From Bradyrhizobium sp. CCBAU 051011 (GTDB taxonomy: Bacteria; Pseudomonadota; Alphaproteobacteria; Rhizobiales; Xanthobacteraceae), in the NCBI RefSeq assembly GCF_009930815.1, contig NZ_CP022222.1:5250501-5314500 (forward strand): a stretch of DNA of 64,000 nt, given 5' to 3'. Below the pieces are notes generated by a model. That model saw only the letters and a program-made list of their open reading frames with translations, had not been told where the DNA came from and searched no databases. A program made the translations under genes and the position numbers. Shown piece after piece: positions 6,753-64,000 of the stretch (positions are counted from its first letter, which is position 1; every line of letters begins with the position of its first letter).

Positions 6753-6766
6753 TCCGCGAGAGTCAG

Positions 6767-31551: not shown

Positions 31552-31756
31552 CTAGAATTGCAAGAAACTGTGTATCGTTTTGCAAATCAGTGGCTTGTCA
31601 TGCGCAATGGCGCGCAAGCGCGGAGGTTGCATCGTGTCACGCTATCGCCAACTTGGAGCTATTAAAAACTTCGACGCCGATATTGCTTTGACCATCATTT
31701 GCTTCTGACTTAGTCAAACGCCATTGCTTTCGTTTTCCGAAAAAGGGGCCGAACCA

Positions 31757-31984
31757 ATGATGGTGTTCGACAGAGACGACGTCACCTTCACCGTCGTTAT
31801 CAATCACGAAGAGCAATACTCCATCTGGCCGACGTTCAAGGAAATTCCGAGCGGCTGGAAAGCGGTGGGTATGACGGGCAGCAAGAAGGAATGTCTCGAG
31901 CACATCGAGCAGGTGTGGACCGACATGCGCCCGCTGACGCTGCGCAAATTCATGGATGAGACGGCTCCGCAGAAGTCGGCCTAG
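31757..31984 (+). CDS. MbtH-like protein, NRPS adenylation activator
   Basis: 75 residues. MbtH-like proteins bind adenylation domains and aid their folding and activity. Signature residues are all present: [12 protein letters not shown] (NxExQxSxWP), IPSGWKAVG, and [15 protein letters not shown]. Start is ATG 31757 or the adjacent ATG 31760, both preceded by AAAAGGGG at 31741. It opens the biosynthetic gene series and lies 202 bases right of the insertion element, so the operon promoter should sit in 31556-31756, where I can pick out no clear consensus. The thioesterase gene follows 21 bases later. Confidence 0.95.
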
Positions 31985-32005
31985 CACAAACAGGGCCCTG
32001 TTCCG

Positions 32006-46500: not shown

Positions 46501-49500
46501 CTGACGCCGAATGGCGAGGTCGATCGTAAGGCGCTGCCTGCGCCGGAGGATGATGCTTTTGCAAGACGCGGCTTTGAATCGCCGCAAGGCGAGATCGAGA
46601 AAACCGTTGCAAAGATCTGGACCGAGGTGTTGGGCGTCGACCGGATTGGACGCAACGATCACTTCTTTGAACTAGGTGGCCACTCGCTGCTTGCGATCCG
46701 CATGCTGGAGCAGTTGCAGCGTCATTCGCTCCGCGCCGATGTGCGCACGCTGTTTGCGAAGCCGGTGCTGGCTGATTTCGCCGCCGGCCTCAATGGTGAC
46801 GGAGGGGGCGACGTTCCGGCTAACCTGATCACGCCGCGGACGACGGCGATTACGCCTGAGCTGTTGCCGTTGATCGCGCTGACACAGTCCGACATCGACA
46901 GCATCGGGGCGGGGGTGCCCGGCGGCGTCGCCAACATTCAGGATATTTACGGCCTGTCGCCGCTGCAGGATGGCATCCTGTTTCACCATCTGCTGTCGCA
47001 GGAAGGCGACCCATATTTGCTGGTCGGCCAGATGGCGTTTGCAAGCCGCGACTTGCTCGACCGCTATCTCGCCGCCGTTCAGCAGGTCATAGACCGCCAC
47101 GACATTCTGCGAACGTCCATTGCGTGGGACGGGTTGTCCGCTCCGGCGCAGGTGGTCTGGCGAAAGGCATCCGTGGTTGTGAGCGAGGTCGTGCTGGATG
47201 GCGAAGGTCTCGCGCATGACCAGCTTGCGCGGCGCTTCGACCCGCGTCGCCATCGGATCGACCTTGGCCAGGCGCCGCTGCTGCAGTTTGCGGTTGCGCG
47301 CGATCCCGGCAAGGAGCGGTGGCTGCTTTTGGTGTTGCTGCATCATTTGATCGGCGATCATTCGACGCTGGAGGGGATGCACGACGAAGTCCGGAAGATA
47401 TTGTCCGGGCGCGGTCACGAGCTTTCGGCTCCGTATCCGTTCCGAAATCTGGTGGCGCAGTCACGCAGGTTGGAGGCTACCGCCGAGCATGAGCGCTTCT
47501 TCCGAAGCATGCTGGCCGATATCGACGAGCCGACCACGCCGTTTGGCCTCGATCGGGTGCATGGTGACGGTGGTGGCGTGACGGAAGCGCAGCGAATGCT
47601 GCCGGACCAGCTCAACGCACGGCTTCGCGCGCTGGCGCGGCATATGGGCGTGAGTCCTGCCAGCCTCTGCCATCTTGCCTGGGGTCAGGTGGTGGCGCGA
47701 AGCAGCGGCCGGGAGCACGTCGTGTTCGGCACCGTCCTGTTCGGCCGCATGCACGCCGGCGCCGGCGGCGATCGCACCATGGGCCTGTTCATCAACACAT
47801 TGCCGCTGCGGCTCGATCTCGATGGCACGGCGGTCGAAGACAGCGTTCGCAAGGCGCATGCTCGGCTGGCCGAATTGATGGCACATGAGCACGCCTGGCT
47901 GGCGCTCGCGCAACGATGCAGCGGCGTTGCCGCGCCGGCGCCTCTGTTCAGTTCGATCCTCAACTACCGGCACAATGCGAAGCCGGAGGCGGCGTCAGCG
48001 GATCAGGGCGGCGCAGGCCTGCACGGCATCGAGTGGCTCGGCGGCGAGGAGCGTACGAACTATCCCCTGATGATGGCGGTCGAGGATTATGGCCAGGCGC
48101 TCGGCCTGACCGCCCAGGTCGTCCATCCGCTCTCGGCCGATCGCATCTGCGCCTTGATGCAGCAGGCGCTGGATCAACTGGCTGAGGCGCTGGAGCAGGC
48201 GCCTCGCTCTCCGGTACGGCAACTTGATGTTCTGCCCTCCGAAGAGCGTCGGCTTCTGCTGGAGACGTGGAATCGGACGCAGGCACAATATCCACGAGAC
48301 CGCTCGTTTGTCGCGCAATTCGAATCGCAGGTCCGCCAATCGCCGGAGGCGATTGCGCTGGTGTTTGGCGAGGAGGAGTTGAGTTATGGCGCGTTGAATG
48401 CGCGCGCCAACGGGCTGGCGCGGCGGTTGCGAAAGCACGGCATCGGAACCGATGGCGTGGTCGGGCTGGCGCTCGACCGCGGCGTCGAGATGATGGTGGC
48501 GCTGCTGGCGGTGCTGAAGGCGGGCGGGGCGTACCTGCCGCTCGATCCGGATTATCCGGCCGAGCGGCTGGCGCACATGCTGCGCGACAGCGGCGCCGCG
48601 CTGGTGTTGACGCAAAGCGCGCTGCTCGATCAGTTCACTCCGGTGTTGGAGGAGACCGGCGCCGAGGCGTGGCTGCTCGATGAGCAGGAAGGCGCGGGCG
48701 GCGACGAAGGCAATCTTGATGTTGCCGTGCATCCCGAGAGCCTCGCCTATGTGATCTACACCTCGGGCTCGACCGGCCTGCCTAAGGGCGTGATGGTCCA
48801 CCACGACGCGGTGACGAACTTTTTGGCGACCATGGCGGAGCAGCCGGGCATGACAGCCATGGACCGCGTGCTCGGCCTGACGTCGTTGTCGTTTGACATC
48901 GCGGTGCTGGAGCTGTGGCTGCCGCTGACACTCGGGGCGTGCGTGGTGCTGGCGGATCGCGCGGCCGCGCATGATCCGGCCCGGCTCAAGGCCATTGTCG
49001 CCAGGCAGGGCGTCACCATGATCCAGGCGACACCCTCGACCTGGCGGATGCTGCTCGACCATGACGGCTCATCGCTGCCGGCGAACTGCCGGGTGCTGTG
49101 CGGCGGCGAGGCGCTGCCGCCGGATCTGGCGCGGCGGCTGGTGGCGCAGGCGGGCGAAGTCTGGAACCTGTACGGCCCGACCGAGACCACGGTGTGGTCG
49201 GCGCGTCACCGCCTCGATCTGCAGGACGACCGTCCGGTGCTGGGCGGTCCGATCGGTAACACCACGCTGCACATTCTGGATAACGACCTCAACCTCGCGC
49301 CGGTCGGGGTTGCCGGCGAACTCTATATCGGCGGCGCAGGATTGGCGCGCGGCTACTGGCGGCGCGGCGCGCTGACGGCGGAGCGCTTTATCCCCGATCC
49401 GTTCGGTCCTCCTGACTCGCGGCTCTACCGCACCGGCGACGTGGCGCGGTGGCGGTCCGACGGCGTGCTCGAATATGTCGGCCGCGCCGATCACCAGGTG

Positions 49501-50109
49501 AAGATCCGCGGCTTCCGGATCGAGCTCGGCGAGATCGAAGCGCGGCTGTTGGCACAGGATGGCGTGCGCTCGGCGGTGGTGGTGGCGCGCGAGGCCGGCG
49601 CGGGGCGCCAGCTCGTCGGCTATGTCAGCGGCGAGGCATCGCTGGATGCGGCGGCGCTCAAGACCGCGCTGTCGTCGGTACTGCCGGATTACATGGTGCC
49701 GGCGCGAATTGTGGTGCTGGACCGGCTGCCACTGACACCGAACGGCAAGATCGACCGCAAGGCGCTGCCGGCGCCGGATCAGCTGGCGGCAGCCACGGAA
49801 CGCGTCGCGCCGCGCACGCCGGCCGAGGTGAAGCTCGCTGCGATCTGGGCCGACCTGCTGCGCCAGCCCGACATCGGCGTCACCGACAATTTCTTCGAGC
49901 TCGGTGGCGACTCTCTCATTGCCGTTCAGCTCGTCAGCCGCATCAAGCGCGATCTCGGCCACGACCTGCCGCTGAACCGGCTGTTTGAAATGACGACCGT
50001 CGAAACCATGGCGGCTGCGCTCGCGCCTGAGATCGAGGTCGACAAGCGCAGCGACGACATCGCCGCGATGCTCGACATGCTGAAGGAAGTCGAACTTGCC
50101 GATGAGTGA
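43528..50109 (+). CDS. NRPS2: C-A-T-C-A(Gly)-T synthetase
   Basis: 2193 residues, starting at GTG 43528, which overlaps the NRPS1 stop as GTGA (ATG 43534 is an alternative). Order: C (49-488, HHIISDG near 181); A (505-1005); T (LGGHS near 1053); an unusual C (1137-1568, IQDIYGLSPLQDGILFHHL; active site HHLIGDHS near 1272 instead of HHxxxDG); A (1592-2088); T (LGGDS near 2128). No epimerase or thioesterase. The first A domain has altered cores (TSGSIGGPKG and YGRTE) and a code of DAWTVGGVC, which I cannot assign. The second code, DILQLGLVW, matches the glycine pattern DILQLGLIWK. The second A plus half of its T is duplicated in NRPS3. The stop overlaps NRPS3 by eight bases. Confidence 0.92.
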   Translation: MNMADAAKPSLRDLDPAQVRKLLSLARDRGKNVIRSGASSIPAVPRDGPLELSFAQQRLWLLAQLDGANSNYHIRGALRLSGDLDVGAWCQSLDRLFARHEALRSVFRVVDGQPRVVLLPVNEHLPVLQHDLRGRDDIEQELARLCREEAGALFDLAAGPLIRGRLIRTAESKYLFLLTQHHIISDGWSMAVLVRELGALYQAFSAGQDDPLPPLAIQYPDYAAWQRQWLAGERLQRQVDYWRRALADAPAVLELPTDRPRSPERSLAGASLPIEIDADLAIGIRRLGQSHRTTPFMTVLAAWAAVLAKLSGQTDLVIGTPTAGRNRREIEGLAGFFVNMLALRVNLSGEPDVAGLLDRVRTTALAAQDHQDLPFEQLVEIIQPPRRLEHPPVFQVVFAWQNNEAAVLELPGLKAEIADIPLQQVKFELELNLGEADGRIVGTLNYATALFDEATIRRQRDYLLSLLRAMVADADQIVDRIDIVGAEERRLVLNTWNETAALFPSERCIHELFVEQVRRAPEAVALVHEGVRLSYGELDASANQLARHLIALGVGPDQPVAICLRRGISMVVSLLAVLKAGGAYLPLDPADPAERLREIVEHAKPKLLVADHAGRAIFANATCEILDLEASASAIAGLATSAPAVTGLTSRHLAYVIYTSGSIGGPKGVAVEHRGLVNLALVQRALFEVSPRSRVVQFASFSFDASTWEIVMALCSGAALFLVGPRELQNTSELLGYLADNAITHATLPPAMLQGRSDLDRLASLRVLVLGGELPKAELMKGLPPGVAVFNGYGRTEATVCATTWRRPAGFGNDVVPIGRPLPNTRIYLLDGFGAPVPLGVVGEIYIGGAGVARGYFNRADLTAERFVRDPFAGDVTARMYRTGDLGRYLPDGNIEFLGRNDHQVKIRGFRIELGEIELRLNEHAGVAASVALVRQDRSGDPRLVAYLAARGDDNAALDAGEFAAALRSHLRARLPEYMVPSAFVRLDALPLTPNGEVDRKALPAPEDDAFARRGFESPQGEIEKTVAKIWTEVLGVDRIGRNDHFFELGGHSLLAIRMLEQLQRHSLRADVRTLFAKPVLADFAAGLNGDGGGDVPANLITPRTTAITPELLPLIALTQSDIDSIGAGVPGGVANIQDIYGLSPLQDGILFHHLLSQEGDPYLLVGQMAFASRDLLDRYLAAVQQVIDRHDILRTSIAWDGLSAPAQVVWRKASVVVSEVVLDGEGLAHDQLARRFDPRRHRIDLGQAPLLQFAVARDPGKERWLLLVLLHHLIGDHSTLEGMHDEVRKILSGRGHELSAPYPFRNLVAQSRRLEATAEHERFFRSMLADIDEPTTPFGLDRVHGDGGGVTEAQRMLPDQLNARLRALARHMGVSPASLCHLAWGQVVARSSGREHVVFGTVLFGRMHAGAGGDRTMGLFINTLPLRLDLDGTAVEDSVRKAHARLAELMAHEHAWLALAQRCSGVAAPAPLFSSILNYRHNAKPEAASADQGGAGLHGIEWLGGEERTNYPLMMAVEDYGQALGLTAQVVHPLSADRICALMQQALDQLAEALEQAPRSPVRQLDVLPSEERRLLLETWNRTQAQYPRDRSFVAQFESQVRQSPEAIALVFGEEELSYGALNARANGLARRLRKHGIGTDGVVGLALDRGVEMMVALLAVLKAGGAYLPLDPDYPAERLAHMLRDSGAALVLTQSALLDQFTPVLEETGAEAWLLDEQEGAGGDEGNLDVAVHPESLAYVIYTSGSTGLPKGVMVHHDAVTNFLATMAEQPGMTAMDRVLGLTSLSFDIAVLELWLPLTLGACVVLADRAAAHDPARLKAIVARQGVTMIQATPSTWRMLLDHDGSSLPANCRVLCGGEALPPDLARRLVAQAGEVWNLYGPTETTVWSARHRLDLQDDRPVLGGPIGNTTLHILDNDLNLAPVGVAGELYIGGAGLARGYWRRGALTAERFIPDPFGPPDSRLYRTGDVARWRSDGVLEYVGRADHQVKIRGFRIELGEIEARLLAQDGVRSAVVVAREAGAGRQLVGYVSGEASLDAAALKTALSSVLPDYMVPARIVVLDRLPLTPNGKIDRKALPAPDQLAAATERVAPRTPAEVKLAAIWADLLRQPDIGVTDNFFELGGDSLIAVQLVSRIKRDLGHDLPLNRLFEMTTVETMAAALAPEIEVDKRSDDIAAMLDMLKEVELADE
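48308..49913 (+). repeat. 1606-bp repeat, copy 1: Gly adenylation domain plus half carrier domain in NRPS2
   Basis: Appears base-for-base identical to 60696-62301 (offset 12388). Antisense and out-of-frame translations of the two copies are also identical throughout, so synonymous sites match too. The left edge falls at the linker before the A domain (sequence differs at 48307 versus 60695); the right edge falls within the serine codon of LGGDS (TCT here, TCG in the other copy). Confidence 0.92.
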
Positions 50110-53100
50110 CACCGCGACCACGCAGAAGCAGCAGCTTCGCGACATCTCTCTACGCTTGATGCGCCTTGATGCCAACAAGCAGCATGCGTTCCTGACGCAG
50201 CTCGCGGCGAAGGGCGTCAATCTCGCGATGCTGCCGATTGCGCGCCAGGAGCGGACGCGGGCGCCGCTGTCCTTTGCGCAATCGCGCCTCTGGTTCCTGT
50301 GGCGGATGGATCCGGATAGCGCCGCCTACAACATCTCGGCGACCGTGCGGGTGCGCGGCAAGCTTCAACGGCGCGCGCTACAGCAGGCCTTCGACACGCT
50401 GATCAGCCGCCACAGCGCGCTTCGCACGGTGTTTCGGCAAGAGGGCAGGGAAGCCGAGCAGATTGTGCTCGATCCGCGTCCGGTCGCGTTGCGGCAGGTG
50501 ACGCTTGACGGCGACGACTGCGAAGGGCAGGCGCGTCTGCTGGCGCGGCAGGAAGCATCGCTGCCGTTTGATCTCGAAGCCGGCCCGCTCATGCGCGCTG
50601 CGTTGCTGACGCTGGGAGAGGACGATCATTTTCTCGTCGTCAGCCTGCACCACATCGCGGCCGATGGCTGGTCGATGGGCGTGCTGGTCGACGAATTCTG
50701 GAAACTGTACGCGGTGGGTGCGTGTGACGAGACGCCGGCGCTGCCGGAGCCGGATATCGAATATACCGACTATGCCGAATGGCAGCGGCTCTGGATGAGC
50801 GCGGTCGATGGCGAGCGGCAGGTCAAGTATTGGACCAGCCGTCTCAAGGACCCGGCCGTGCTGCAGCTTCCTATCGACCGGGCGCGGCCGGCGGTGCCTG
50901 GTCTCGCCGGATCGGCGCTTCGCATGACGCTCGATCCGGCGCTTGCCGATGGCCTGCGCGCGCTGGCACGGCGGCACCAGACCACGCTGTTTGTCGTCCT
51001 GCTGGCGAGCTTCAAGCTGTTGCTCTATCGCTACACCGGCCAGTCCGATATCAGCGTCGGCGTGCCCGTCGCCAATCGCCACCGCGATGAAACCCGCGGC
51101 GTCATCGGGCTGTTCGTCAACACTCAGGTGCTTCGCACCGATATCGACGGGCGTGCGACGATCGCGGACTTCATCGCGTCGGTCCATGCAACCACGATCG
51201 AAGCGCAGGAGAACCAGGATCTTCCGTTCGAGCGATTGCTTGAAATCCTGCAGCCCAAGCGCAGCCTGAGTCAGAATCCGCTTTTCCAGGTTCTCTACAA
51301 CCACCAGCGCCGGCGCGTGTCGGGCAATCCGCCTGACCAGACCGGCCTGCAGATCGAAAAGGTCGAGCCCGAAATCGAAACAGTCAAGTTCGACCTCGCG
51401 CTCGACAGCGAGGAGGGGCCGTCGGGCGAAATCCGCGCGCTCTTCACTTACGCAACCGCGCTGTTCGAGGCGACGACGATCGACCGTCTTGCGTCGCACT
51501 GGATCACGGTCCTGAAGGCGATGGCCGACGACGGCGCGCAGCCGATCGCCGGCATGGCGCTGCTTTCCGAACAGGAATGGGCTCGGCTGCGCCAGTGGAA
51601 CGGCGTGGATGCCGGGACGGCCACGCCGTTCGCGCCGGTGCATCAAACGGTTGCCAAGTTCGCGCGTGAAACGCCCGATGCTCCGGCGCTGATCTTCGGC
51701 GATGAGGTGATCTCCTATGCCGAACTCGATCGTCGGGCCAATCGGCTCGCGCACCGCCTGATCCGCCTGGGCGTCGGTCGCTCCGACCTCGTCGGCATTT
51801 CGGCGCGGCGTTCGCCGTCTCTCGTCATAGCCTTGCTTGCCATATTGAAGGCGGGCGCGGCCTATCTGCCGCTCGATCCCGAGCATCCGGCGAAACGGCA
51901 GGTCAGCACGATGCGCGACGCCGGCGCGCGCTTCGTGCTGGTGGACGCAGAAGGTTCTGCGCTGACGTCGCCACCGCCCGGCATCGCCGTTGTGTCACTC
52001 GATGCGACTGATCCTGACCGTGAGACCGAGGGTGATCCGCGGATCGCGGTGGCGCCAACAAACCTTGCCTATGTGATCTACACGTCGGGCTCCACGGGCA
52101 TTCCGAAGGGCGTCGCGGTCGAGCACGGGCCGTTCGCGATGCATTGCGAGGTGACCGCAGGGCTCTACGATATGGACCGGCGCTCGCGCGAACTGCACTT
52201 CCTCTCCTTTACCTTCGATGGCGCCCATGAGCGGCTCTGGACCGCGCTGGTTTGCGGCGCTGCGCTCGTGATGCGTGACGCGAATTTGTGGTCGGCCGAG
52301 CAGACGCTCGACGTGCTGCGCCAGCAGCGCGTCACCAACGCCGGCTTCCCGCCGGCCTATTTGCAGCAACTCGCCGACTTTGCGGCGTGCCGCGGCGATC
52401 CGCCGCCGGTCGAGCTTTATTCCTTCGGCGGAGAGGCGATGCCGAAGGCGGGCTTCGACAAGGTCAAGCGGGCGCTTAAGCCGCGGACTTTAATCAACGG
52501 CTACGGCCCGACCGAAACGGTGGTGACGCCGCTGGTCTGGAAGGTCGACGCCAGCGAAGAAATCGACGGTAACTATGCGCCGATCGGCCGTCCGGTCGGA
52601 CGCCGCTCGGCCTACATTCTGGACGGTGATCTCAACGTTGTGCCGGTCGGGGTGACCGGCGAATTGTTCATCGGCGGCGAAGGATTGGCGCGCGGCTATT
52701 GGCGGCGCGCGGAACTGACGGCAGAGCGGTTCATTCCCGATCCCTTCGGTGCGCCCGGCGCGCGGCTATATCGCACGGGCGATCTGGCGCGATGGCGTGT
52801 CGATGGTGTGATCGAATATGTCGGCCGTTCCGATCATCAGGTGAAGATCCGCGGCTTCCGGATCGAACTCGGCGAAATCGAGGCGTGGCTGATGCGGCAG
52901 GGTGGCGTGCAGTCGGCCGTCGTCGTTGCCCGAGAAGCCGGCGTCACCCGCCAACTGGTCGGCTATGTTGCGGGTGACGGTGCGTTCGACGAAGCGGCGA
53001 TGCGCGCTGCACTCTCGGACGAGCTACCCGACTACATGGTGCCGGCCCGCATCATGAAGCTAGAGCGGCTGCCGCTTACGGCTCACGGCAAGGTGGACCG

Positions 53101-56100
53101 CGAAGCCCTGCCGGCTCCCGAGACGCCCGCTGCAACTTCGGCGCATGTCGCGCCGCGAACCGTGGCCGAGACGACGCTGGCCGCGATCTGGGCCGAACTG
53201 CTTGGCCAGCCTGTTATCGGCATCGACGACAATTTCTTCGAGTTGGGGGGCGATTCCATCATCTCGCTGCAACTGGTCGGCCGCGCCCGCCAGGCAGGCC
53301 TCGTGATCGAACCACGTGACGTTTTCCGGCATCAGACGTTGCAGGAGCTGGCGCTGATAGCGCGCATCGAACAGACGGAGAAAGAGGTCGCTCCTGAAAA
53401 GGAGATTGAGGGAAGCGACCATCCGTTGTTGCCGATCCAGGCGCGCTTCTTCAACCAGGATGCCGGCGAGCGCCATCACTGGAACCAGGCCGTCCTGTTG
53501 ACGCCGAAGGCGAGGCTCGATTGGTCAATCATGGAACGCACGGTTGCCGCGATCGTAGCGCATCATGCCGCCTTGCGCCTCCGCTTCGAGGAGATCAATG
53601 GGGCCTGGCGGGCGACCTATGGTGCCGCGCCAGTAATTTCGGAACTGTTGTGGGCTCGAAGCGGTATACGCGATGCCGCCGAAGTGACGGCGGTCGCTTC
53701 TGCGGCTCAAGCCAGCCTGTCGCTCGCGGGACCGCTGTTGCGCGTGGTCGGCATGGACCTCGCCGACGGCAGCCAGCGACTCCTCGTCGTCGTGCACCAT
53801 CTCGTCATCGATGGCGTGTCGTGGCGCGTGCTGCTCGAAGATTTTGCCGCGGCGTACGGACAGATTCAGCAAGGCGCGTCGTCGATCGCGTTGGCGAAGA
53901 GCCAATCCTACGCATCCTGGGCTGCGCGGCTGCAGGCCTATGGCGGCACCGAAGCGCTGGCGGCCGAGTTGTCCTATTGGCTCGAACGAGGGGCGTGCGC
54001 CGATCTGCCCTGTGACGACGATCACGGCGGCGTCGATCGGGTTGCCGATGGCGAGGAAATTTCGCTAGTGTTCGACGCGGGCTTGACGACGCGGCTGCTG
54101 AAAGAGGCGCCGTCGGCGTACCGGACCCAGGTCAATGATCTCTTGCTGGCGGCACTGGCGCGGGCGGTATCGCGCTGGAGCGGATTTGACGATGTCGTTG
54201 TCGAACTCGAAGGGCACGGCCGCGAGGATGTTTTCGCAGGCTTCGATATTTCCCGCACCGTTGGCTGGTTTACCACCGCTTTCCCCGTGCGTTTGCCGGG
54301 CGGCTCCGGTGACGACGCTTCGCTGATCAAGTCCATCAAGGAAGAGCTCCGGGCGATTCCGGCCCGTGGGTTGGGCTACGGCATATTGCGCTATCTCGGC
54401 ACCGAGGTGCAGCGCAACGCGCTGGCGGCGCTTGCCGAGCCGCGCATCGTCTTCAACTATCTCGGTCAGTTCGATTCCAGCGTGGGTGAGAGCGCGCCGT
54501 TCCGCCTTGCGCAAGAGAGCGCCGGGCCGGCACGCAGCGACAGCGCGCCGCTTGGCCGCTGGCTGAGCGTCAACGGCCAGGTGCGGGAAGGGCAGTTGCG
54601 GTTGTCGTTCAGCTACGGCCGCAGGCGTTACCGCCGCACGACGATCGAGCGCTTTGTGGAGCATTATGCGGCGGCCTTGTGCGAACTCGTCGACCATTGC
54701 ACGGGCGGTGCCCGCGGCATGACGCCTTCGGACTTTGCCCTGTCGGGATTGAATCAGGCCGATCTCGACCTCTTGAGTGAAACGATAGATTGTCGCGAAA
54801 TCGAGGACATCTATCCGCTGTCGCCGATGCAGCAGGGCATGCTGTTCCATGCGCTGCGCGATGGCGAGAGTGGCAATTATGTCAACCAGGTCGCCCTCGA
54901 AGTGCGTGGCCTCGATCCCGACCGGCTGCGCGCCGCCTGGCATGAGGTCAGCGCTCGCCATGCGGTGCTTCGAACCGGCTTTGCATGGCGCGAACTATCC
55001 GGCGCGGCGCAGCAGGTGGTCTATCGCCATGTGACGCTGCCGTTCCTGGAAGAAGACTGGCGCGAACATGCGGCCATGGACCAAAACGAACGCGAGGCCG
55101 CATTGGCCCGCGCAGCGCAGGCCGAGCGTGCCAGGGGATTCGATCTGGCGCAGGCGCCGTTGCAGCGCGTGCGGTTGATCCGGCTCGATGAAAGTCGCCA
55201 CTGGCTGATCTGGACGCATCACCATATCCTGCTCGATGGCTGGAGCTCGGCGCGACTGATGGCCGAGATATTGCAGCACGAACGCGGCGGCCGCTTGTCC
55301 CCGGTGCGGGGGCGCTACCGCGACTACATTGATTGGCTGCAAAAGCAGGACCGCGATGCTTCGGCGACATTTTGGCGCTCGGCAATGGCCGAGCTCGACG
55401 AGCCCAGTTTCCTCGCGGATACGCTGGGAGGCCCCGCGACGGCAGGCGCATCAGGTCATGGCTCGCTGGACCTGCTTCTCGCCGTAGATCTAACGACAAA
55501 ACTGCAGGCGTTTGCCAAGCGTGAGCGCGTCACGCTGAACACGCTGCTGCAAGGCGCGTGGGCGCAATTGCTGCGCCGTCACACCGGCCAGCGCGTAGTC
55601 TGTTTCGGTGCGACGGTGTCGGGCCGGCCGGCGGAGATCAGCGGCTCCGAGGATATGGTGGGCCTGTTCATCAACACGCTGCCGGTCGTGGATCTGGCAA
55701 ACCCGCAAACCGATGTGGGGACGTGGCTTCGCGACCTGCAGGAACGCAACATCGATCTGCGTGATCACGGCTGGATGCCGCTCCATGAGATACAGCGTCT
55801 CGCCGGCCGAGCCGGGCGCGCGCTGTTCGACAATATCCTCGTCTTCGAGAACTATCCGATCGATCAGGCGCTGCGCGGCGAAAACGAAAGCGGCCGTCGC
55901 TTTGGAAAAGTCGAGCAGGTCTCGATTACTAACTATGCGCTGACGGTGGCGGTGTTCGCCAAGAGCGACGGCATCAATCTGGGTTTCCGCTATGATCGCG
56001 GCCGGTTCGATGACGACCAGATCAGATATCTGCAGGCGTCTCTCTCGCGGCTGCTTGCCGAGATCGTGGCGGATGCCTCCCGACCGCTCGGTGAACTCAG

Positions 56101-59100
56101 TGGCCTCGATGCCGATGAGACGCGGAGGGTGCTTGGCTGGAGCGGCGGCTTTGCCAAGGCTCCGAACTTCGGCGGCAGCATCGTTGCACAGGTTGAGGCA
56201 CGTGCGGCTGCCTCGCCATCCGCGATTGCGCTGGTGTTTGGCGGCGAGGAAGTCAGCTATGGCGATCTGAACACGCGCGCCAATGGCCTGGCGCGACGGC
56301 TGCGCGACCATGGCATCGGTCGTGACCGGCTGGTTGGCCTTGCGCTGGAGCGCAGCGTCGAGCTGATCGTCGGTGTTCTCGCCGTGCTGAAGGCAGGTGG
56401 CGCCTATCTGCCGCTCGATCCGGATTATCCGTCGGATCGGCTGTTGCACATGGTGCGTGACAGCGGAACAACCCTGGTACTGACTCAAGGCCGATTGCTG
56501 CAGCGCCTCGCACCGGTGATGGCTGGAGCGGTCGCTGAGGCCTGGACCATCGAAGGAGAGAGTGAGGCTTGGACGGGCGAGCCGGCCCGCAATCTCGCCG
56601 TCGCGATGCATCCGGATAGCCTGGCTTATGTCATGTACACGTCCGGATCGACGGGCATGCCCAAGGGCGTGGCCTGCTCGCATCGTGCCCTCGCTGCGCG
56701 ACTCGGCTGGATGCAGGCGGAATATCGCCTCGATGCCGGCGAGACCTTGTTGCAGAAGACGCCGTTCAGCTTCGACGTCTCGGTCTGGGAGATCCTGTGG
56801 CCGCTCGCGGCCGGCGCACGGCTTGCGATTGCCGCGCCCGGCGCACATCGCGAGCCGCGACTTCTGGTGGAAGCCATTATCGCGCATGAAGTGACGACGC
56901 TGCATTTCGTGCCGCAGATGCTCGAGCATTTCGTTGCCGAGCCCCAAGCCAAACGCTGCGTGTCGCTCAAGCGCTTGTTTGCCGGCGGCGAAGCCTTGTC
57001 GGTGGAGCTGAAGGCGCGCGTGCTGGCAGGGTTCCCCGATGTGCGCTTCGATAATCGCTACGGCCCGACCGAAGCCTTGATCAATGCGACGTTCTGGAAC
57101 TGCCGCGATGACGATGCGGCGCGCGTGCCGATCGGACGGCCGATCCCGGGTACGGCAATTCGCATCCTCGATGCTGAACTGAACATGGCCCCGGCCGGCG
57201 TGACGGGTGAGTTGTTCATTGGCGGGGAAGGACTCGCGCGCGGCTACTGGCGGCGCGGGAAACTGACGGCGGAGCGCTTCATTCCCGATCCCTTCGGCGG
57301 GCCCGGCGCGCGGCTATATCGATCGGGAGATCTGGCGCGCTGGCGTGCCGATGGCGCGATCGAATATGTCGGGCGCGCCGATCACCAGATCAAGATTCGC
57401 GGCTTCCGCATCGAGCTTGGCGAGATCGAAGCGCGGCTGCTGGAACAGCCCGGTGTTCGGCACGCGGTGGTGGTGGCGCGCGAGGTCGGGGCCGGACGCC
57501 AGCTGGTCGGTTATGTCAGCGGCGCGGGCGAACTTGAGGAAGCGTCGCTGCGGACGGCGCTGTCATCCGTTCTGCCCGATTACATGGTACCGTCGCGGAT
57601 CGCGGTGCTGGAACGGCTGCCGCTGGCGCCGAACGGCAAGATCGACCGCCAGGCGCTGCCGGCGCCTGACGCTGTCTACGAAGGCGCAGAGTACCAAGCA
57701 CCACGCACGCCCGCCGAAGTGGCGCTTGCGGCAATCTGGGCCGAATTGCTCGCCCGGCCTGCCGTTGGTCTTGCCGACAATTTCTTCGAACTCGGTGGCG
57801 ATTCGATCATCTCGCTGCAGATGGTGAGCCGGGCCCGTCGCGCCGGCTATCTGATCGAACCGCGCGATGTGTTTCAGCATCAGACGCTGGAAGCGCTGGC
57901 GCTTGCTGCGCGCACCGATCAACACAGTGAGGTGCTCGCCGATCAGGGGCAGGTCACCGGCCCGCATTCACTGCTGCCGATTCAGGCCCGCTTCCTTGCC
58001 GAGGACGCAGGAAGGCGCGACCACTGGAATCAGGCAATACTGCTAAGGCCGAGGGACCGCCTCGATTGGGATGTCATGCGGCGCGCGCTAGCGGCCGTGG
58101 TCGATCATCACGACGCGCTGCGGCTTCGATTCGAAGAAGGTGATGGAGGTTGGCGCGCGGAGCACGGCGTTGCGCCAACTGCGGCGGATCTGCTTTGGGT
58201 CCGAAGTGCGGCCGATGGAGAGGGCGTGACGGCGCTGGCTTCGTCGGCGCAGGCAAGCCTCTCGATATCCGAAGGGCCATTGCTACGTGCGGTCGGCATT
58301 GACGTCGCCGATGGCAGCCAGCGCTTTCTGATCGCGATCCATCATCTGGTCGTCGACGGCGTGTCATGGCGGATTCTGCTGGAAGACGTTGCCGCCGCAT
58401 ACACGCAACTCGCGCAAGGCATGGTCGCGCTTCCGTCGAAGAGCCATTCCTATGCATTGTGGGGTGAGCGGCTGCATACCTATGCAACATCGCCTGCGCT
58501 GGTCACGGAACTGTCCTATTGGGTCGAGCGCCATGTGAAAGCGGACATCCCTTGCGATGACGATCATGGCGGCATCGATCATATCGCCGACGCCGACGAA
58601 GTGCTGCTCTCATTCGAACAGGAATTGACGCAGCGCCTGTTGAGGGACGCGCCATCCGCCTATCGCACGCAGATCAACGATCTGCTTCTCGCCGGCCTCG
58701 CACGTGCCGTCTGGCGCTGGAGCGGACAGGACGAGGTCCTGGTCGAGTTGGAAGGCCATGGCCGCGAGGATCTGTTCAGCGATCTCGATATCGCGCGCAC
58801 GGTCGGCTGGTTCACGACCGCGTTTCCGGTGCGGCTGGCCGGCGGGGCGCAACAGCCGTCCGCATTGATCAAGAGCGTGAAGGAGGAGCTGCGCGGCATT
58901 CCCGGCCGCGGGCTTGGCTACGGCGTATTGCGCTATCTCGGCTCTGAAGAACAGCGCGCGGCGCTTTCAGGTATTGCCGAGCCCAAGATTGCCTTCAACT
59001 ATCTCGGCCAGATCGACGGCGGCACCGGCGAGGATGCATTGTTCGCCATGGCGACGGAGAGCGCGGGCCCTTCGCGTGACGCATCCAGCCCGTTGCGGCG

Positions 59101-62100
59101 CTGGCTAAGCGTGAACGGCACGGTGCGCGAAGGCCAGTTGCGGCTCTCGTTCGGCTTTGGTCGCAAGCGCTATCGGCGCGAGACGATCGAGCGATTGGCG
59201 GCGTTGTATGAAGCGGCGATGCGTGAGCTGGTCGATCACTGCACCAGCGGCGCCCGCGGCCTGACGCCGTCGGATGTGGCATTGTCGGGCCTTGGCCAGG
59301 CCGAGATCGATCATCTCGGGCTCGATTGGCGTGAGGTCGAGGACATCTATCCCTTGTCGCCGATGCAGCAGGGAATGCTGTTCCATGCGATGCACGACGG
59401 CGAGAGCGGACTTTACGTCAACCAGGTTGCTGCGGAGATCCACGGCCTCGATGCCGCAAAGCTGCGTCGCGCCTGGCAGGCGGTCAGCGATCGCCATGCG
59501 GTGCTGAGAACCGGTTTTGTCTGGCGCGACCTGTCCGGCTCGCCGCAACAGATTGTCTATCGCCGTGCGGAAGTACCGTTTGTCGAAGAGGACTGGCGCG
59601 CGCGGGCTGCGGCGTGGGATCAGGACCAATTGGACGCCGCGCTGGCCGATGTGTCGCGGCAGGAACAGGCCGCAGGGTTTGATCTGTCGCGGCCGCCTTT
59701 GCAGCGGGTGCGGCTGATCCGGCTCGGAGACGATCGTCATTGGCTGATCTGGACGCATCATCACATCCTGCTCGATGGATGGAGCTCGGCGCGGCTGATC
59801 GCCGAGGTGATGCAGCATAACGGCGAAGGCCGGCTGCCGGCATTGCAGCATCACTATCGCGATTACATCGCGTGGCTGCAGGACCGGGATAGCGATGCTT
59901 CGGCGGCGTTCTGGCGCGATGCGATGGCAAGGCTCGATGAGCCGAGTTTCCTGGCCGAACATGTGGACGGGGAATCGTCCGGCCACGGCATGCTCGCGCT
60001 GGAGCTGGATGCCGCGCTGACCGGGCGGCTGCAACGGTTTGCGGCGCGCGAACGCGTCACGATGAACACGCTGGTGCAGGCCGCATGGGCGCAGTTGCTG
60101 CGGCAATATACCGGACAGAGCACGGTTTGCTTCGGCGTCACCGTGTCGGGCCGGCCGCCGGAACTCGCCGGCGGAGAAGATATGGTCGGCCTGTTCATCA
60201 ACACGTTGCCGGTCGTCGACGACGTTGGTCCGCAGCAGAGGGTTGGCGCTTGGCTGCGTGAATTGCAGGATCGCAATCTGGTCTTGCGTGAAAACGGCTG
60301 GACGCCGCTCTATGAAATTCAGCGTCTCGCGGGGCGTGCCGGACGGCCGCTGTTCGACAGCATTCTCGTATTCGAGAATTATCCGGTCGACCATGCGCTG
60401 ATGGGGAAGAACCGGCAGATCCGTGTCGGCGAGACCAGGATCGTCGAAACCAGCAATTATCCGCTGTTCACGAGCGTCGGGCTCGATGAACGGCTGCGGC
60501 TGGTCTTCAACTATCAGCGCCGGCATTTCGATGAGGCGCAGATCGCGCGGCTGCAACGTGCTTTTGTGCGGCTGATTGAGGCGTTGAGCATCGATGCCGA
60601 TCGGCCGATTGGCACGGTCGTGGCTGGCGATCCCGCGGATGATGCGCTACTCGCCCGAGCCAACAGCACGCGAGGCGATGAACCGCGCCTGGGAATTGTC
60701 GCGCAATTCGAATCGCAGGTCCGCCAATCGCCGGAGGCGATTGCGCTGGTGTTTGGCGAGGAGGAGTTGAGTTATGGCGCGTTGAATGCGCGCGCCAACG
60801 GGCTGGCGCGGCGGTTGCGAAAGCACGGCATCGGAACCGATGGCGTGGTCGGGCTGGCGCTCGACCGCGGCGTCGAGATGATGGTGGCGCTGCTGGCGGT
60901 GCTGAAGGCGGGCGGGGCGTACCTGCCGCTCGATCCGGATTATCCGGCCGAGCGGCTGGCGCACATGCTGCGCGACAGCGGCGCCGCGCTGGTGTTGACG
61001 CAAAGCGCGCTGCTCGATCAGTTCACTCCGGTGTTGGAGGAGACCGGCGCCGAGGCGTGGCTGCTCGATGAGCAGGAAGGCGCGGGCGGCGACGAAGGCA
61101 ATCTTGATGTTGCCGTGCATCCCGAGAGCCTCGCCTATGTGATCTACACCTCGGGCTCGACCGGCCTGCCTAAGGGCGTGATGGTCCACCACGACGCGGT
61201 GACGAACTTTTTGGCGACCATGGCGGAGCAGCCGGGCATGACAGCCATGGACCGCGTGCTCGGCCTGACGTCGTTGTCGTTTGACATCGCGGTGCTGGAG
61301 CTGTGGCTGCCGCTGACACTCGGGGCGTGCGTGGTGCTGGCGGATCGCGCGGCCGCGCATGATCCGGCCCGGCTCAAGGCCATTGTCGCCAGGCAGGGCG
61401 TCACCATGATCCAGGCGACACCCTCGACCTGGCGGATGCTGCTCGACCATGACGGCTCATCGCTGCCGGCGAACTGCCGGGTGCTGTGCGGCGGCGAGGC
61501 GCTGCCGCCGGATCTGGCGCGGCGGCTGGTGGCGCAGGCGGGCGAAGTCTGGAACCTGTACGGCCCGACCGAGACCACGGTGTGGTCGGCGCGTCACCGC
61601 CTCGATCTGCAGGACGACCGTCCGGTGCTGGGCGGTCCGATCGGTAACACCACGCTGCACATTCTGGATAACGACCTCAACCTCGCGCCGGTCGGGGTTG
61701 CCGGCGAACTCTATATCGGCGGCGCAGGATTGGCGCGCGGCTACTGGCGGCGCGGCGCGCTGACGGCGGAGCGCTTTATCCCCGATCCGTTCGGTCCTCC
61801 TGACTCGCGGCTCTACCGCACCGGCGACGTGGCGCGGTGGCGGTCCGACGGCGTGCTCGAATATGTCGGCCGCGCCGATCACCAGGTGAAGATCCGCGGC
61901 TTCCGGATCGAGCTCGGCGAGATCGAAGCGCGGCTGTTGGCACAGGATGGCGTGCGCTCGGCGGTGGTGGTGGCGCGCGAGGCCGGCGCGGGGCGCCAGC
62001 TCGTCGGCTATGTCAGCGGCGAGGCATCGCTGGATGCGGCGGCGCTCAAGACCGCGCTGTCGTCGGTACTGCCGGATTACATGGTGCCGGCGCGAATTGT

Positions 62101-64000
62101 GGTGCTGGACCGGCTGCCACTGACACCGAACGGCAAGATCGACCGCAAGGCGCTGCCGGCGCCGGATCAGCTGGCGGCAGCCACGGAACGCGTCGCGCCG
62201 CGCACGCCGGCCGAGGTGAAGCTCGCTGCGATCTGGGCCGACCTGCTGCGCCAGCCCGACATCGGCGTCACCGACAATTTCTTCGAGCTCGGTGGCGACT
62301 CGATCATCTCGCTGCAGATGGTGAGCCGCGCGCGCCGCGAAGGCGTATCGATCGAGCCGCGCGACGTCTTCCGGCATCAGACGATCGAGGCGCTGGCGGC
62401 GGTGTCCCGCGACGTCGGCCCGTCCGAGGATACACCGGTATCCGAACGCGGCTCGCTCGCGGGGCTATCCAGCGAGCAGCTCGAGCGGCTTGGTCTCGAC
62501 TGGAACCGCATCGAGGATATCTACCCGCTGTCGCCGATGCAGCAGGGCATGTTGTTCCACAGTCTGCGCGATGCCGGCAGCGGCGTCTACGTCAACCAGG
62601 TCAGCGTCGAGATTCGCGGCCTCGACCCCGAACGTCTGGGCCGGGCATGGCATGAGGTGACCGCGCGCCATCAGATGCTTCGGACCGGATTCCTGTGGCG
62701 CGAGCTTTCCGGATCTCCGCTGCAAGCGGTCTATCGCGACGCCATCGCGCCGTTCGAACAGGAAGACTGGCGCGGGCAGGCGATCAGCGACGAACGGATC
62801 GCGGCGGCGCTTGCCGGCGAACGCGCCGCCGAGTTCGATCTCTCGACACCGCCGCTGCAGCGCGTGCGGCTGTTGCGCCTCGATGACGACCTCTACCGGC
62901 TGGTCTGGACCTATCATCACATCCTGATGGACGGCTGGAGTTCGGCAAGGTTCGTCGGGGAAGTTCTGCAATGCTACTACGGCGGCGCGCCTGCAGCGAA
63001 CCCGACGCGTTACCGCGATTACATCGCCTGGCTGCTGGCACAGGACGCCAAGGCGGCTGAAAGCTTCTGGCGCGAACAGCTCGAGGCCTTCGATGAGCCG
63101 ACGCAACTGGCCGATGCCTTCGGTTCGCGCCGCCACCAGGCATCCGGCCATGAGCGCTGCTATACACGGCTTGGAGAGACGGCGACCGCAGAATTGAAGG
63201 CGTTCGCGCGCCGTGAGCGGATCACGCTCAACACTATCGTTCAGGGCGTCTGGGCCCTGCTGCTGCAACGCTATACCGGCCAGCAGACCGTGACGTTTGG
63301 CGTTACCGTCGCCGGCCGCCCGGCCAATCTCGACGGATCGCAGCAGATGCTCGGACTCTTCATCAACACGCTGCCGGTTATCGAAACACCGTCGTTCGCC
63401 AGCACGGTCGGAGAATGGCTCCGCGCGCTGCAGGACCGCAATTCGGCGATCCGCGACTACGAGCATACGCCGCTCTACGACATTCAGGGCTGGGCCGGTC
63501 GCGCCGGGCAGACGATGTTCGACAGCATCATCGTGTTCGAGAATTATCCGATCGAACGCAGCATGCACCAAGGCGATGGTTCGCTGCAGTTCAGCGGTCT
63601 CAGAAACGTCGACGTGACGAACTATCCGATGGACCTGTCGGTGCTCGTCGAGGACACGCTGCAGATCGAGTACACCTATATGCCGAGCCATTTCACGGCG
63701 GCACAGGCGGTGCAGATCAAGGCGCAGTTCGAACATCTGCTTGTCGCGCTGACGCGGGACGCAACGGCAATGCTTGGCAGCATCGATCCGGTGACGGAGA
63801 TCGACGCCGCTCTCGCCGGGAATTGCAATCGCCACGCGACGCCGGCCGTGCCGCTGCCGCCGGTGCATGAGGCGATCAGCCGCCATGCGAAGCGCCACCC
63901 TGAACGGACGGCGCTTACCATCGGCGGCAAGGTGCTCTCATTCGGCGCGCTCGACGCCAAGGCCAATCGTCTTGCCCATCATCTGATTGCCCGCGGGCTC
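50102..64000 (+). CDS. NRPS3: C-A-T-E / C-A-T-E / C-A(Gly)-T / C-A..., runs off window
   Basis: At least 4633 residues from ATG 50102 (eight-base overlap with NRPS2), open to the right edge; I checked the frame at about a dozen landmarks. Order: C (55-487, HHIAADG), A (513-1010), T (near 1050), E (1102-1547); C (1566-2003), A (2027-2523), T (near 2567), E (2620-3057); C (3078-3513), A (3530-4027), T (near 4067); C (4136-4577, HHILMDG), then the start of a fourth A. Hand-read codes: DGEGSGGVT (Glu at 239, basic residue such as Lys/Orn), DVWHFGRIN (Ser-like start DVWH but unusual end), DILQLGLVW (Gly). The third module has an epimerase-type carrier but no epimerase. Release domain and final residues lie to the right. 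Confidence 0.92.
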   Translation, partial: MSDTATTQKQQLRDISLRLMRLDANKQHAFLTQLAAKGVNLAMLPIARQERTRAPLSFAQSRLWFLWRMDPDSAAYNISATVRVRGKLQRRALQQAFDTLISRHSALRTVFRQEGREAEQIVLDPRPVALRQVTLDGDDCEGQARLLARQEASLPFDLEAGPLMRAALLTLGEDDHFLVVSLHHIAADGWSMGVLVDEFWKLYAVGACDETPALPEPDIEYTDYAEWQRLWMSAVDGERQVKYWTSRLKDPAVLQLPIDRARPAVPGLAGSALRMTLDPALADGLRALARRHQTTLFVVLLASFKLLLYRYTGQSDISVGVPVANRHRDETRGVIGLFVNTQVLRTDIDGRATIADFIASVHATTIEAQENQDLPFERLLEILQPKRSLSQNPLFQVLYNHQRRRVSGNPPDQTGLQIEKVEPEIETVKFDLALDSEEGPSGEIRALFTYATALFEATTIDRLASHWITVLKAMADDGAQPIAGMALLSEQEWARLRQWNGVDAGTATPFAPVHQTVAKFARETPDAPALIFGDEVISYAELDRRANRLAHRLIRLGVGRSDLVGISARRSPSLVIALLAILKAGAAYLPLDPEHPAKRQVSTMRDAGARFVLVDAEGSALTSPPPGIAVVSLDATDPDRETEGDPRIAVAPTNLAYVIYTSGSTGIPKGVAVEHGPFAMHCEVTAGLYDMDRRSRELHFLSFTFDGAHERLWTALVCGAALVMRDANLWSAEQTLDVLRQQRVTNAGFPPAYLQQLADFAACRGDPPPVELYSFGGEAMPKAGFDKVKRALKPRTLINGYGPTETVVTPLVWKVDASEEIDGNYAPIGRPVGRRSAYILDGDLNVVPVGVTGELFIGGEGLARGYWRRAELTAERFIPDPFGAPGARLYRTGDLARWRVDGVIEYVGRSDHQVKIRGFRIELGEIEAWLMRQGGVQSAVVVAREAGVTRQLVGYVAGDGAFDEAAMRAALSDELPDYMVPARIMKLERLPLTAHGKVDREALPAPETPAATSAHVAPRTVAETTLAAIWAELLGQPVIGIDDNFFELGGDSIISLQLVGRARQAGLVIEPRDVFRHQTLQELALIARIEQTEKEVAPEKEIEGSDHPLLPIQARFFNQDAGERHHWNQAVLLTPKARLDWSIMERTVAAIVAHHAALRLRFEEINGAWRATYGAAPVISELLWARSGIRDAAEVTAVASAAQASLSLAGPLLRVVGMDLADGSQRLLVVVHHLVIDGVSWRVLLEDFAAAYGQIQQGASSIALAKSQSYASWAARLQAYGGTEALAAELSYWLERGACADLPCDDDHGGVDRVADGEEISLVFDAGLTTRLLKEAPSAYRTQVNDLLLAALARAVSRWSGFDDVVVELEGHGREDVFAGFDISRTVGWFTTAFPVRLPGGSGDDASLIKSIKEELRAIPARGLGYGILRYLGTEVQRNALAALAEPRIVFNYLGQFDSSVGESAPFRLAQESAGPARSDSAPLGRWLSVNGQVREGQLRLSFSYGRRRYRRTTIERFVEHYAAALCELVDHCTGGARGMTPSDFALSGLNQADLDLLSETIDCREIEDIYPLSPMQQGMLFHALRDGESGNYVNQVALEVRGLDPDRLRAAWHEVSARHAVLRTGFAWRELSGAAQQVVYRHVTLPFLEEDWREHAAMDQNEREAALARAAQAERARGFDLAQAPLQRVRLIRLDESRHWLIWTHHHILLDGWSSARLMAEILQHERGGRLSPVRGRYRDYIDWLQKQDRDASATFWRSAMAELDEPSFLADTLGGPATAGASGHGSLDLLLAVDLTTKLQAFAKRERVTLNTLLQGAWAQLLRRHTGQRVVCFGATVSGRPAEISGSEDMVGLFINTLPVVDLANPQTDVGTWLRDLQERNIDLRDHGWMPLHEIQRLAGRAGRALFDNILVFENYPIDQALRGENESGRRFGKVEQVSITNYALTVAVFAKSDGINLGFRYDRGRFDDDQIRYLQASLSRLLAEIVADASRPLGELSGLDADETRRVLGWSGGFAKAPNFGGSIVAQVEARAAASPSAIALVFGGEEVSYGDLNTRANGLARRLRDHGIGRDRLVGLALERSVELIVGVLAVLKAGGAYLPLDPDYPSDRLLHMVRDSGTTLVLTQGRLLQRLAPVMAGAVAEAWTIEGESEAWTGEPARNLAVAMHPDSLAYVMYTSGSTGMPKGVACSHRALAARLGWMQAEYRLDAGETLLQKTPFSFDVSVWEILWPLAAGARLAIAAPGAHREPRLLVEAIIAHEVTTLHFVPQMLEHFVAEPQAKRCVSLKRLFAGGEALSVELKARVLAGFPDVRFDNRYGPTEALINATFWNCRDDDAARVPIGRPIPGTAIRILDAELNMAPAGVTGELFIGGEGLARGYWRRGKLTAERFIPDPFGGPGARLYRSGDLARWRADGAIEYVGRADHQIKIRGFRIELGEIEARLLEQPGVRHAVVVAREVGAGRQLVGYVSGAGELEEASLRTALSSVLPDYMVPSRIAVLERLPLAPNGKIDRQALPAPDAVYEGAEYQAPRTPAEVALAAIWAELLARPAVGLADNFFELGGDSIISLQMVSRARRAGYLIEPRDVFQHQTLEALALAARTDQHSEVLADQGQVTGPHSLLPIQARFLAEDAGRRDHWNQAILLRPRDRLDWDVMRRALAAVVDHHDALRLRFEEGDGGWRAEHGVAPTAADLLWVRSAADGEGVTALASSAQASLSISEGPLLRAVGIDVADGSQRFLIAIHHLVVDGVSWRILLEDVAAAYTQLAQGMVALPSKSHSYALWGERLHTYATSPALVTELSYWVERHVKADIPCDDDHGGIDHIADADEVLLSFEQELTQRLLRDAPSAYRTQINDLLLAGLARAVWRWSGQDEVLVELEGHGREDLFSDLDIARTVGWFTTAFPVRLAGGAQQPSALIKSVKEELRGIPGRGLGYGVLRYLGSEEQRAALSGIAEPKIAFNYLGQIDGGTGEDALFAMATESAGPSRDASSPLRRWLSVNGTVREGQLRLSFGFGRKRYRRETIERLAALYEAAMRELVDHCTSGARGLTPSDVALSGLGQAEIDHLGLDWREVEDIYPLSPMQQGMLFHAMHDGESGLYVNQVAAEIHGLDAAKLRRAWQAVSDRHAVLRTGFVWRDLSGSPQQIVYRRAEVPFVEEDWRARAAAWDQDQLDAALADVSRQEQAAGFDLSRPPLQRVRLIRLGDDRHWLIWTHHHILLDGWSSARLIAEVMQHNGEGRLPALQHHYRDYIAWLQDRDSDASAAFWRDAMARLDEPSFLAEHVDGESSGHGMLALELDAALTGRLQRFAARERVTMNTLVQAAWAQLLRQYTGQSTVCFGVTVSGRPPELAGGEDMVGLFINTLPVVDDVGPQQRVGAWLRELQDRNLVLRENGWTPLYEIQRLAGRAGRPLFDSILVFENYPVDHALMGKNRQIRVGETRIVETSNYPLFTSVGLDERLRLVFNYQRRHFDEAQIARLQRAFVRLIEALSIDADRPIGTVVAGDPADDALLARANSTRGDEPRLGIVAQFESQVRQSPEAIALVFGEEELSYGALNARANGLARRLRKHGIGTDGVVGLALDRGVEMMVALLAVLKAGGAYLPLDPDYPAERLAHMLRDSGAALVLTQSALLDQFTPVLEETGAEAWLLDEQEGAGGDEGNLDVAVHPESLAYVIYTSGSTGLPKGVMVHHDAVTNFLATMAEQPGMTAMDRVLGLTSLSFDIAVLELWLPLTLGACVVLADRAAAHDPARLKAIVARQGVTMIQATPSTWRMLLDHDGSSLPANCRVLCGGEALPPDLARRLVAQAGEVWNLYGPTETTVWSARHRLDLQDDRPVLGGPIGNTTLHILDNDLNLAPVGVAGELYIGGAGLARGYWRRGALTAERFIPDPFGPPDSRLYRTGDVARWRSDGVLEYVGRADHQVKIRGFRIELGEIEARLLAQDGVRSAVVVAREAGAGRQLVGYVSGEASLDAAALKTALSSVLPDYMVPARIVVLDRLPLTPNGKIDRKALPAPDQLAAATERVAPRTPAEVKLAAIWADLLRQPDIGVTDNFFELGGDSIISLQMVSRARREGVSIEPRDVFRHQTIEALAAVSRDVGPSEDTPVSERGSLAGLSSEQLERLGLDWNRIEDIYPLSPMQQGMLFHSLRDAGSGVYVNQVSVEIRGLDPERLGRAWHEVTARHQMLRTGFLWRELSGSPLQAVYRDAIAPFEQEDWRGQAISDERIAAALAGERAAEFDLSTPPLQRVRLLRLDDDLYRLVWTYHHILMDGWSSARFVGEVLQCYYGGAPAANPTRYRDYIAWLLAQDAKAAESFWREQLEAFDEPTQLADAFGSRRHQASGHERCYTRLGETATAELKAFARRERITLNTIVQGVWALLLQRYTGQQTVTFGVTVAGRPANLDGSQQMLGLFINTLPVIETPSFASTVGEWLRALQDRNSAIRDYEHTPLYDIQGWAGRAGQTMFDSIIVFENYPIERSMHQGDGSLQFSGLRNVDVTNYPMDLSVLVEDTLQIEYTYMPSHFTAAQAVQIKAQFEHLLVALTRDATAMLGSIDPVTEIDAALAGNCNRHATPAVPLPPVHEAISRHAKRHPERTALTIGGKVLSFGALDAKANRLAHHLIARGL
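60696..62301 (+). repeat. 1606-bp repeat, copy 2: Gly adenylation domain plus half carrier domain in NRPS3
   Basis: Second copy of 48308-49913. After the shared block the NRPS3 carrier continues as GGDSIISLQMVSRARRE, like carriers that precede epimerases, whereas NRPS2 continues GGDSLIAVQLVSRIKRD. This carrier is therefore a hybrid with its join at the phosphopantetheine serine. Confidence 0.92.

Follow-up and report, generated by a model that had tools for sequence, protein, structure and literature searches.

Recurrent Gene Conversion as the Probable Cause of Identity between Two Gly-Coded A-T(half) Units in a Bradyrhizobium NRPS Cluster

Two modules of an NRPS cluster in Bradyrhizobium sp. 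CCBAU 051011 contain the same stretch of DNA, a whole A domain followed by the first half of a T domain, and the two copies are identical base for base. The two-copy state is ancestral: in related genomes the pair is found at the same two positions, with fixed edges and an invariant specificity code. The units cluster within genomes while their flanks cluster by position, and differences between the copies are arranged in mosaic tracts. We consider recurrent gene conversion (concerted evolution) of this A-T(half) unit to be the best explanation of the identity, with a probability of about 0.9. One building-block module would thus have been overwritten by its twin, with the neighboring modules left alone. 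Throughout, the window is the whole stretch of 64,000 nucleotides that was analyzed (contig NZ_CP022222.1, positions 5,250,501 to 5,314,500).

Results

The Identical Block and Its Setting

The features discussed here are collected in Table 1. Pairwise comparison of the two blocks gives 1606 matching bases out of 1606, with no scattered substitutions, so that the first-pass annotation was right to describe the copies as identical even at silent sites. The edges are abrupt: the first base outside the block differs between the copies on both sides, and full 100-base windows lying wholly outside it on the same diagonal are 16–40% identical, which is to say unalignable at that register. The left edge, placed in the C-A linker by the same annotation, is the second base of a codon (F1594 in NRPS2, I3534 in NRPS3) just before VAQFESQ, at the start of the A domain. 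The right edge does lie inside the carrier serine codon, as proposed, between the second and third bases of the FFELGGDS serine codon (TCT versus TCG). In an alignment with the solved NRPS LgrA, the last residue of the unit falls on the GGDS serine, which we take to be the carrier serine of LgrA.

Table 1. Positions in the window of the two unit copies, their flanks, the third site and the NRPS genes
Feature	Start	End	Strand
NRPS1, 3255 aa: N-terminal fatty-acyl-AMP-ligase-like domain, then two amino-acid modules	33764	43531	+
NRPS1 module 2 A-T (third site): code DIEFIGAIAK here, last positions uncertain; Gly-type in one clade	41723	43354	+
NRPS2, 2193 aa: two C, two A and two T domains; copy 1 in module 2	43528	50109	+
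Left flank of copy 1, position-specific: condensation domain and C-A linker	46687	48307	+
Copy 1 of the homogenized unit, NRPS2 module 2: whole A domain and first T half to the carrier Ser	48308	49913	+
Right flank of copy 1, position-specific: second T half (S-LIAVQLVSRIKRDLG) and NRPS2 C-terminus	49914	50109	+
NRPS3, 5474 aa: four A domains, the third in copy 2; ORF 50096 to 66520, beyond the window end (64000)	50096	64000	+
Left flank of copy 2: T half, epimerase-type domain (TIGR01720 extension), condensation domain, C-A linker	57806	60695	+
Copy 2 of the homogenized unit, NRPS3 module 3	60696	62301	+
Right flank of copy 2, position-specific: second T half (S-IISLQMVSRARREGV) and next condensation-type domain	62302	63868	+

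Within the identical block, 0 of 346 fourfold sites differ between the copies in this strain, and the edge serine is the sole differing fourfold site of 347; against the copies of the nearest genome, 16–17% of such sites differ. By a rule-of-three bound, uncorrected for multiple hits, the latest full homogenization would fall roughly within the last 5% of the separation from that genome (G091). The exact identity is that of the public assembly, a single contig of 9,099,371 bp. Among the 40 of 319 candidates that were scored, the only full-length matches to the unit on this contig are the two copies themselves, and the next-best match is 77% identical over 642 bp. There are no further repeats of at least 150 bp and at least 85% identity in the window and the next 14 kb. 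A second NRPS-type region of this genome (L040; G000:C1:8252000-8271900) likewise has no internal repeat of that length and identity, and homogenization is therefore not seen there. A plasmid search with the unit returned partial NRPS matches only, none covering 80% of it. Compared with the other modules, the whole A-T unit has 52–65% nucleotide identity. The earlier description of flanks and other modules as clearly diverged thus holds for the flanks and for the unit as a whole, but not for its last 38%, which is 76–77% identical to NRPS3 modules 1 and 2.

The genes around the NRPS genes include two TonB receptors, a TauD-family oxygenase, a periplasmic binding protein, an FecCD permease, a GNAT acetyltransferase and an ornithine/lysine N-monooxygenase. 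Judging by this gene content, the product of the cluster is most likely a lipopeptide hydroxamate siderophore. The siderophore-type gene set lies at 22316–33698 and at L038:6517-17104. In NRPS3, module 1 (51653–53257) and module 4 (63869–65500, reaching into L038) have a common code, DGEGFGGVWK, and their DNA is 62% identical. Each of them comes after a Gly-coded module, which gives the line a Gly-X ... Gly-X pattern.

The specificity code of the unit, DILQLGLVWK, is found in 67 of the 68 copies in a motif alignment from 34 genomes; in the 68th, the frameshifted copy 1 of G062, the last code position alone is missing. DILQLGLIWK is a Gly code, from which the code of the unit differs at one residue. 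It differs at two from DILQLGMIWK, given for Gly domains in a published account (PMC12283262). The A domain of the unit is therefore predicted to be Gly-type, and it would activate glycine. The Gly specificity first proposed for it accords with this code.

The Pair in Other Genomes

Both copies lie on one contig at orthologous sites in at least 34 of 265 congeneric (Bradyrhizobium) genomes, this genome included. The number is a lower bound, as the genome search scored two candidates per genome and listed all but its weakest matches; G050, G207, G254, G257, G261, G199 and G002, where a copy is cut or unpaired, are outside the 34. The copies are about 12.4 kb apart in 33 of the 34 genomes. The exception is G141, whose outer copies are 24.8 kb apart with a third copy between them; the two outer copies were used here, and in G086, G231 and G085 a copy at NRPS1 module 2 was set aside. 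Right flanks are position-specific in 34 of 34 genomes, and so are left flanks for copy 2 (34/34) and copy 1 (33/34, copy 1 of G157 being cut by a contig end). Position-specific flanks at both sites across 34 genomes indicate a duplication that predates the sampled species. Outside the genus, a pair with flanks of the same kinds is found in G360 (on one contig), in the Hyphomicrobiales bin G319 (spacing 7.9 kb) and in Nitrobacter sp. Nb-311A (G383; on two contigs). The copies in these genomes are 84.1%, 83.6% and 99.94% identical, respectively, and are sisters with support 100 in each.

The edges are constant as well. The right edge is at the carrier-serine codon in 34 of 34 genomes, and the left edge at the start of the A domain in all 33 in which it is seen. 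Past the serine codon, unbroken identity extends for 0 bases in every one of the 34. The 60 bp before that codon are 83–100% identical between copies and the 60 bp after it 38–58%, while the 60 bp to the left of the left edge codon are 23–50% identical (33/33 genomes). On this left side the paralogs become alike across the first three codons, in the mean over 32 genomes. Just after the serine, copy 1 reads L-[ITVA]-A-V and copy 2 reads I-[IVT]-S-L in all 34 congeneric genomes; copy 1 of Nitrobacter reads I-V-A-I, so that position does not dictate the first of these residues in that genome. We considered a rule by which the second T half depends on whether the T domain precedes an E or a C domain, and dropped it because copy 2 is not followed by a TIGR01720 signature.

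Is the likeness of the two copies a property of the genome or of the position? The copies within one genome are about 81–100% identical (34 genomes, the frameshifted G062 aside). By blastn the pairs are 89–100% identical in 33 genomes, with G062 matching in pieces; G231 matches in pieces at 82–88%, and its pair is 80.9% identical on the codon alignment. In 28 of the 34 genomes, identity between the two copies exceeds their identity to the nearest genome's copies at both positions. The six failures of this simple identity test include G062, owing to its frameshift. In the unit tree the copies are sisters in 30 of 33 genomes (SH-aLRT of those pairs 50–100), the exceptions being G161, G162 and G231, and the AU test rejects a tree in which the copy-1 sequences are all kept together (p 1e-47). 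The upstream flanks behave in the opposite way: all 31 copy-1 flanks form one clade with support 100, and the two flanks are sisters in none of the 31 genomes having both. Mean identity within genomes exceeds that between species inside the unit, and the order is reversed outside it, with single-codon exceptions. Paralog dS is below nearest-ortholog dS in 30 of 33 genomes, with dN/dS 0.20 within genomes versus 0.175 between them. The trees are quick searches. G062, a frameshifted draft, was dropped from the unit tree, clustering and dN/dS counts; the flank tree is without G062 and G233, and copy 1 of G157 had no upstream flank. The genomes in which the copies are not sisters (3/33) or fail the identity test (6/34) suggest that conversion is not continuous and can lapse.

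Several pairs, for example those of G255, G069, G086 and G026, show long blocks with few or no differences beside diverged ends. A permutation test finds the differences between copies to be clustered along the unit (p < 0.01) in 18 of 33 paralog pairs, versus 3 of 50 ortholog comparisons, with 4000 permutations for paralogs and 1000 for ortholog pairs. Three of the 18 are trivial cases of near-identical copies with almost no differences, and rate variation along the gene, together with lower test power in the more diverged ortholog pairs, may add to the contrast. Among full bins, the first 100 bp of the unit have the highest mean difference (11.5% versus 3.3–8.8% elsewhere, without G062), as is expected if tracts seldom reach the end. 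Single conversion events are deduced here from patterns across genomes.

A Third Site

The code of the NRPS1 module-2 A domain, read in no more than 25 sequences, is DIEFIGAIAK in 18 of them and DILQLGLVWK or DILQLGMVWK in 7. For the present strain the smaller alignment gives DIEFVGAAWK and the larger DIEFIGAIAK, the last positions being uncertain. The Gly-type code occurs at this module in BTAi1, B. aeschynomenes, G222, G246, G086, G231 and G085, bacteria that we take to be photosynthetic. The Gly-type module-2 loci among the relatives are L165, L166, L174, L072, L074, L077 and L147. The seven Gly-type A domains are monophyletic (support 95). Their clade groups with the units of six of these genomes, and no other unit falls in that group (19 of 19 sequences, support 100); the node that places the clade inside rather than beside those units has support 47. 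The contrast of module 2 with other genomes peaks at about 500–1000 bp of the unit, the specificity-bearing core. The Gly-type code and the joining of this clade to the units suggest that the A core of NRPS1 module 2 was replaced in the ancestry of the clade, most simply once. In six genomes the Gly-type module 2 is now about 77–81% identical to copy 1 of its own genome, which indicates that the third site is not kept in the conversion cycle.

Fused and Duplicated Units

Three drafts, SZCCT0231 (L086/L099), G254 and G261, contain a fused unit with the left part of copy 1 and the right part of copy 2. Loop-out deletion of the middle segment was considered and rejected: L086, G254 and G261 are fused, yet each time the middle segment exists on another contig, of 11.0–11.7 kb, so that we read the fused units as assembly joins. 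Both ends of the middle contig lie inside the unit in G254 (162 and 77 bp at 100%) and in G261 (168 and 685 bp at 96.4 and 95.3%). The 95–96% identity of the G261 contig ends to the fused unit implies at least two versions of the unit there. For L099 (bases 121–7743 of an 11,259-bp contig) one end is seen, inside the unit and 120 bp short of the contig end.

In G141, a one-contig genome, the 12.4-kb segment between the copies is tandemly duplicated (L052-L053, G141:C1:3098900-3131200). Its middle unit resembles copy 2 as far as column 514 and copy 1 from column 548 onward, with one switch, and holds private frame-shifting indels. It is a candidate for gain by unequal crossover; given the private indels, the middle unit may instead reflect poor assembly.

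Discussion

The observations are best accounted for as follows. An old paralogous pair of Gly-coded A/half-carrier units would hold fixed places in a lipopeptide-siderophore-like NRPS line. Homologous recombination between these direct repeats, 12.4 kb apart, would copy one onto the other, repeatedly and in each lineage. The unchanged flanks point to non-crossover gene conversion, presumably of the RecA type. The pair would therefore evolve in concert, and in this strain the last event would be very recent and have covered the whole unit. Tracts appear to end at various places inside the unit and, in the genomes examined, at none outside it. One possible reason is that past the two edges, the A-domain start and the carrier serine, the paralogs have diverged too far for pairing; another is selection against conversion of the second T half.

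It is tempting to hypothesize that the A-T(half) unit is itself a selected copy-correction cassette, in which identical Gly loading in two modules is favored and selection holds the edge at the serine because the residues after it suit different partner domains. We think this rather unlikely. If it were true, the locus would show which half of a carrier domain nature exchanges freely and which it does not, and the concerted-evolution "trap" would be adaptive, not neutral.

Within the window alone, the 100% identity and sharp edges would fit a single recent duplication or transposition of the A-T block between modules in this strain. Such an origin is very improbable, for a Gly-coded unit occupies both positions in all 34 congeneric genomes examined, and three genomes outside the genus likewise have the unit at both, with flanks of the same kinds; every lineage would have had to acquire its own recent insertions at exactly these two codons. 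The first-pass annotation had envisaged a very recent gene conversion or duplication that spread a Gly-specific domain. Conversion between the copies, with a recent last overwriting, stands; recent duplication does not, nor does the spread of a Gly domain, since both positions already carried the code. The comparison with the orthologous locus that it suggested as a check points to an old pair, re-copied repeatedly, instead of a one-off duplication. Could protein selection, purifying or convergent, keep the domains alike with no exchange of DNA? The near-invariant code and a dN/dS well below 1 are what it would produce, but it cannot make synonymous sites follow the partner copy. Silent sites are homogenized too, and the copies cluster by genome. 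Moreover, NRPS3 modules 1 and 4, with their shared code, remain at 62% DNA identity, so equal specificity alone does not homogenize. We give this explanation next to no weight.

The main alternative named at the outset was an artifact, in which differing copies are made identical by collapsed-repeat consensus or polishing. Drafts do mishandle this repeat, as the fused units in three relatives illustrate, but there the error runs in the opposite direction, with the repeat fused and the middle placed on a separate contig. The present genome is one 9.1-Mb contig with both unique flanks. Single-contig relatives are found at intermediate identity (G235, 97.6%; G053, 92.2%) as well as at or near 100% (G194, 100%; G069, 99.4%), and the concerted evolution in relatives is independent of this assembly. 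An artifact is thus an improbable main cause here, and recurrent conversion remains our preferred reading.

Concerted evolution of NRPS domains and exchange from A1–A10 into the mid T domain are already known; the present locus is a well-resolved new case with unusually constant edges. Medema et al. (2014; PMC4256081) based their inference of concerted evolution in NRPS/PKS domains on trees of several related clusters, in which the branching was cluster-specific; in their model, duplicated modules diverge and recombine internally in a cycle that traps them. As in their account, domains of the same cluster here resemble each other more than their positional orthologs, and the trap model fits. 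What differs from the work as described there is that we follow one unit, with fixed codon-level edges, through more than 30 species and include its silent sites, its mosaic tracts and the flanks at each position. The published trap model thereby gains a replicated natural experiment, at the same two positions in more than 30 species and at identities from 100% to about 81%. The closest parallel in extent is the mcyB1/mcyC exchange in microcystin synthetase (Fewer et al. 2007; PMC2174460), which also spans A1–A10 into the mid T domain, leaves the C domains behind, is recurrent and joins two modules of one cluster. In that system most strains have different binding pockets in the two modules, and the exchange is linked to product variants. 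With one code in both copies, exchange at the present locus should leave the product unchanged.

GRINS (genetic repeats of intense nucleotide skew; Nivina et al. 2021), as summarized in PMC10394414, are stretches of about 1 kb that often match a second region of their assembly line at more than 90% identity, and they are suggested to act through gene conversion. The present repeat is of that approximately 1-kb class and exceeds 90% identity within one assembly line, but it belongs to an NRPS, not a PKS. Its GC skew of 0.094 and TA skew of 0.076 (largest 300-bp values 0.21 and 0.20) are below the 25% expected of GRINS, and we do not class it with them. Swaps of A domains or A cores have been described by Baunach et al. 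(2021; PMC8097286), by Calcott et al. (2020; PMC7486941) and for wollamide/desotamide (PMC9205934). In one clade, the specificity change at NRPS1 module 2 resembles a swap of this kind, and the C/A recombination hotspot in these studies agrees with the left edge here. The breakpoints stressed by Baunach et al. leave the A subdomain and its T interface in place, whereas both the A subdomain and half of the T domain travel with our unit. The XUT exchange units (Bozhueyuek et al. 2024), presented in PMC11355689 as an engineering rule, consist of T-half/C-A/T-half. They likewise have the fusion point inside the T domain, set here at the serine codon by nature, but the natural unit is an A-T(half) without a C domain. 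The literature searched yielded no paper on NRPS gene conversion in Bradyrhizobium, and broader searches yielded none on the genus by title.

A boundary inside the carrier domain that is constant in every congeneric genome examined bears on where NRPSs may be cut and joined. The same cluster also offers a third module in which the A core was apparently replaced in one clade and then diverged freely. For genome mining, the fused drafts (L086 with L099, L026 with L185, and L034 with L186) are false module deletions to beware of.
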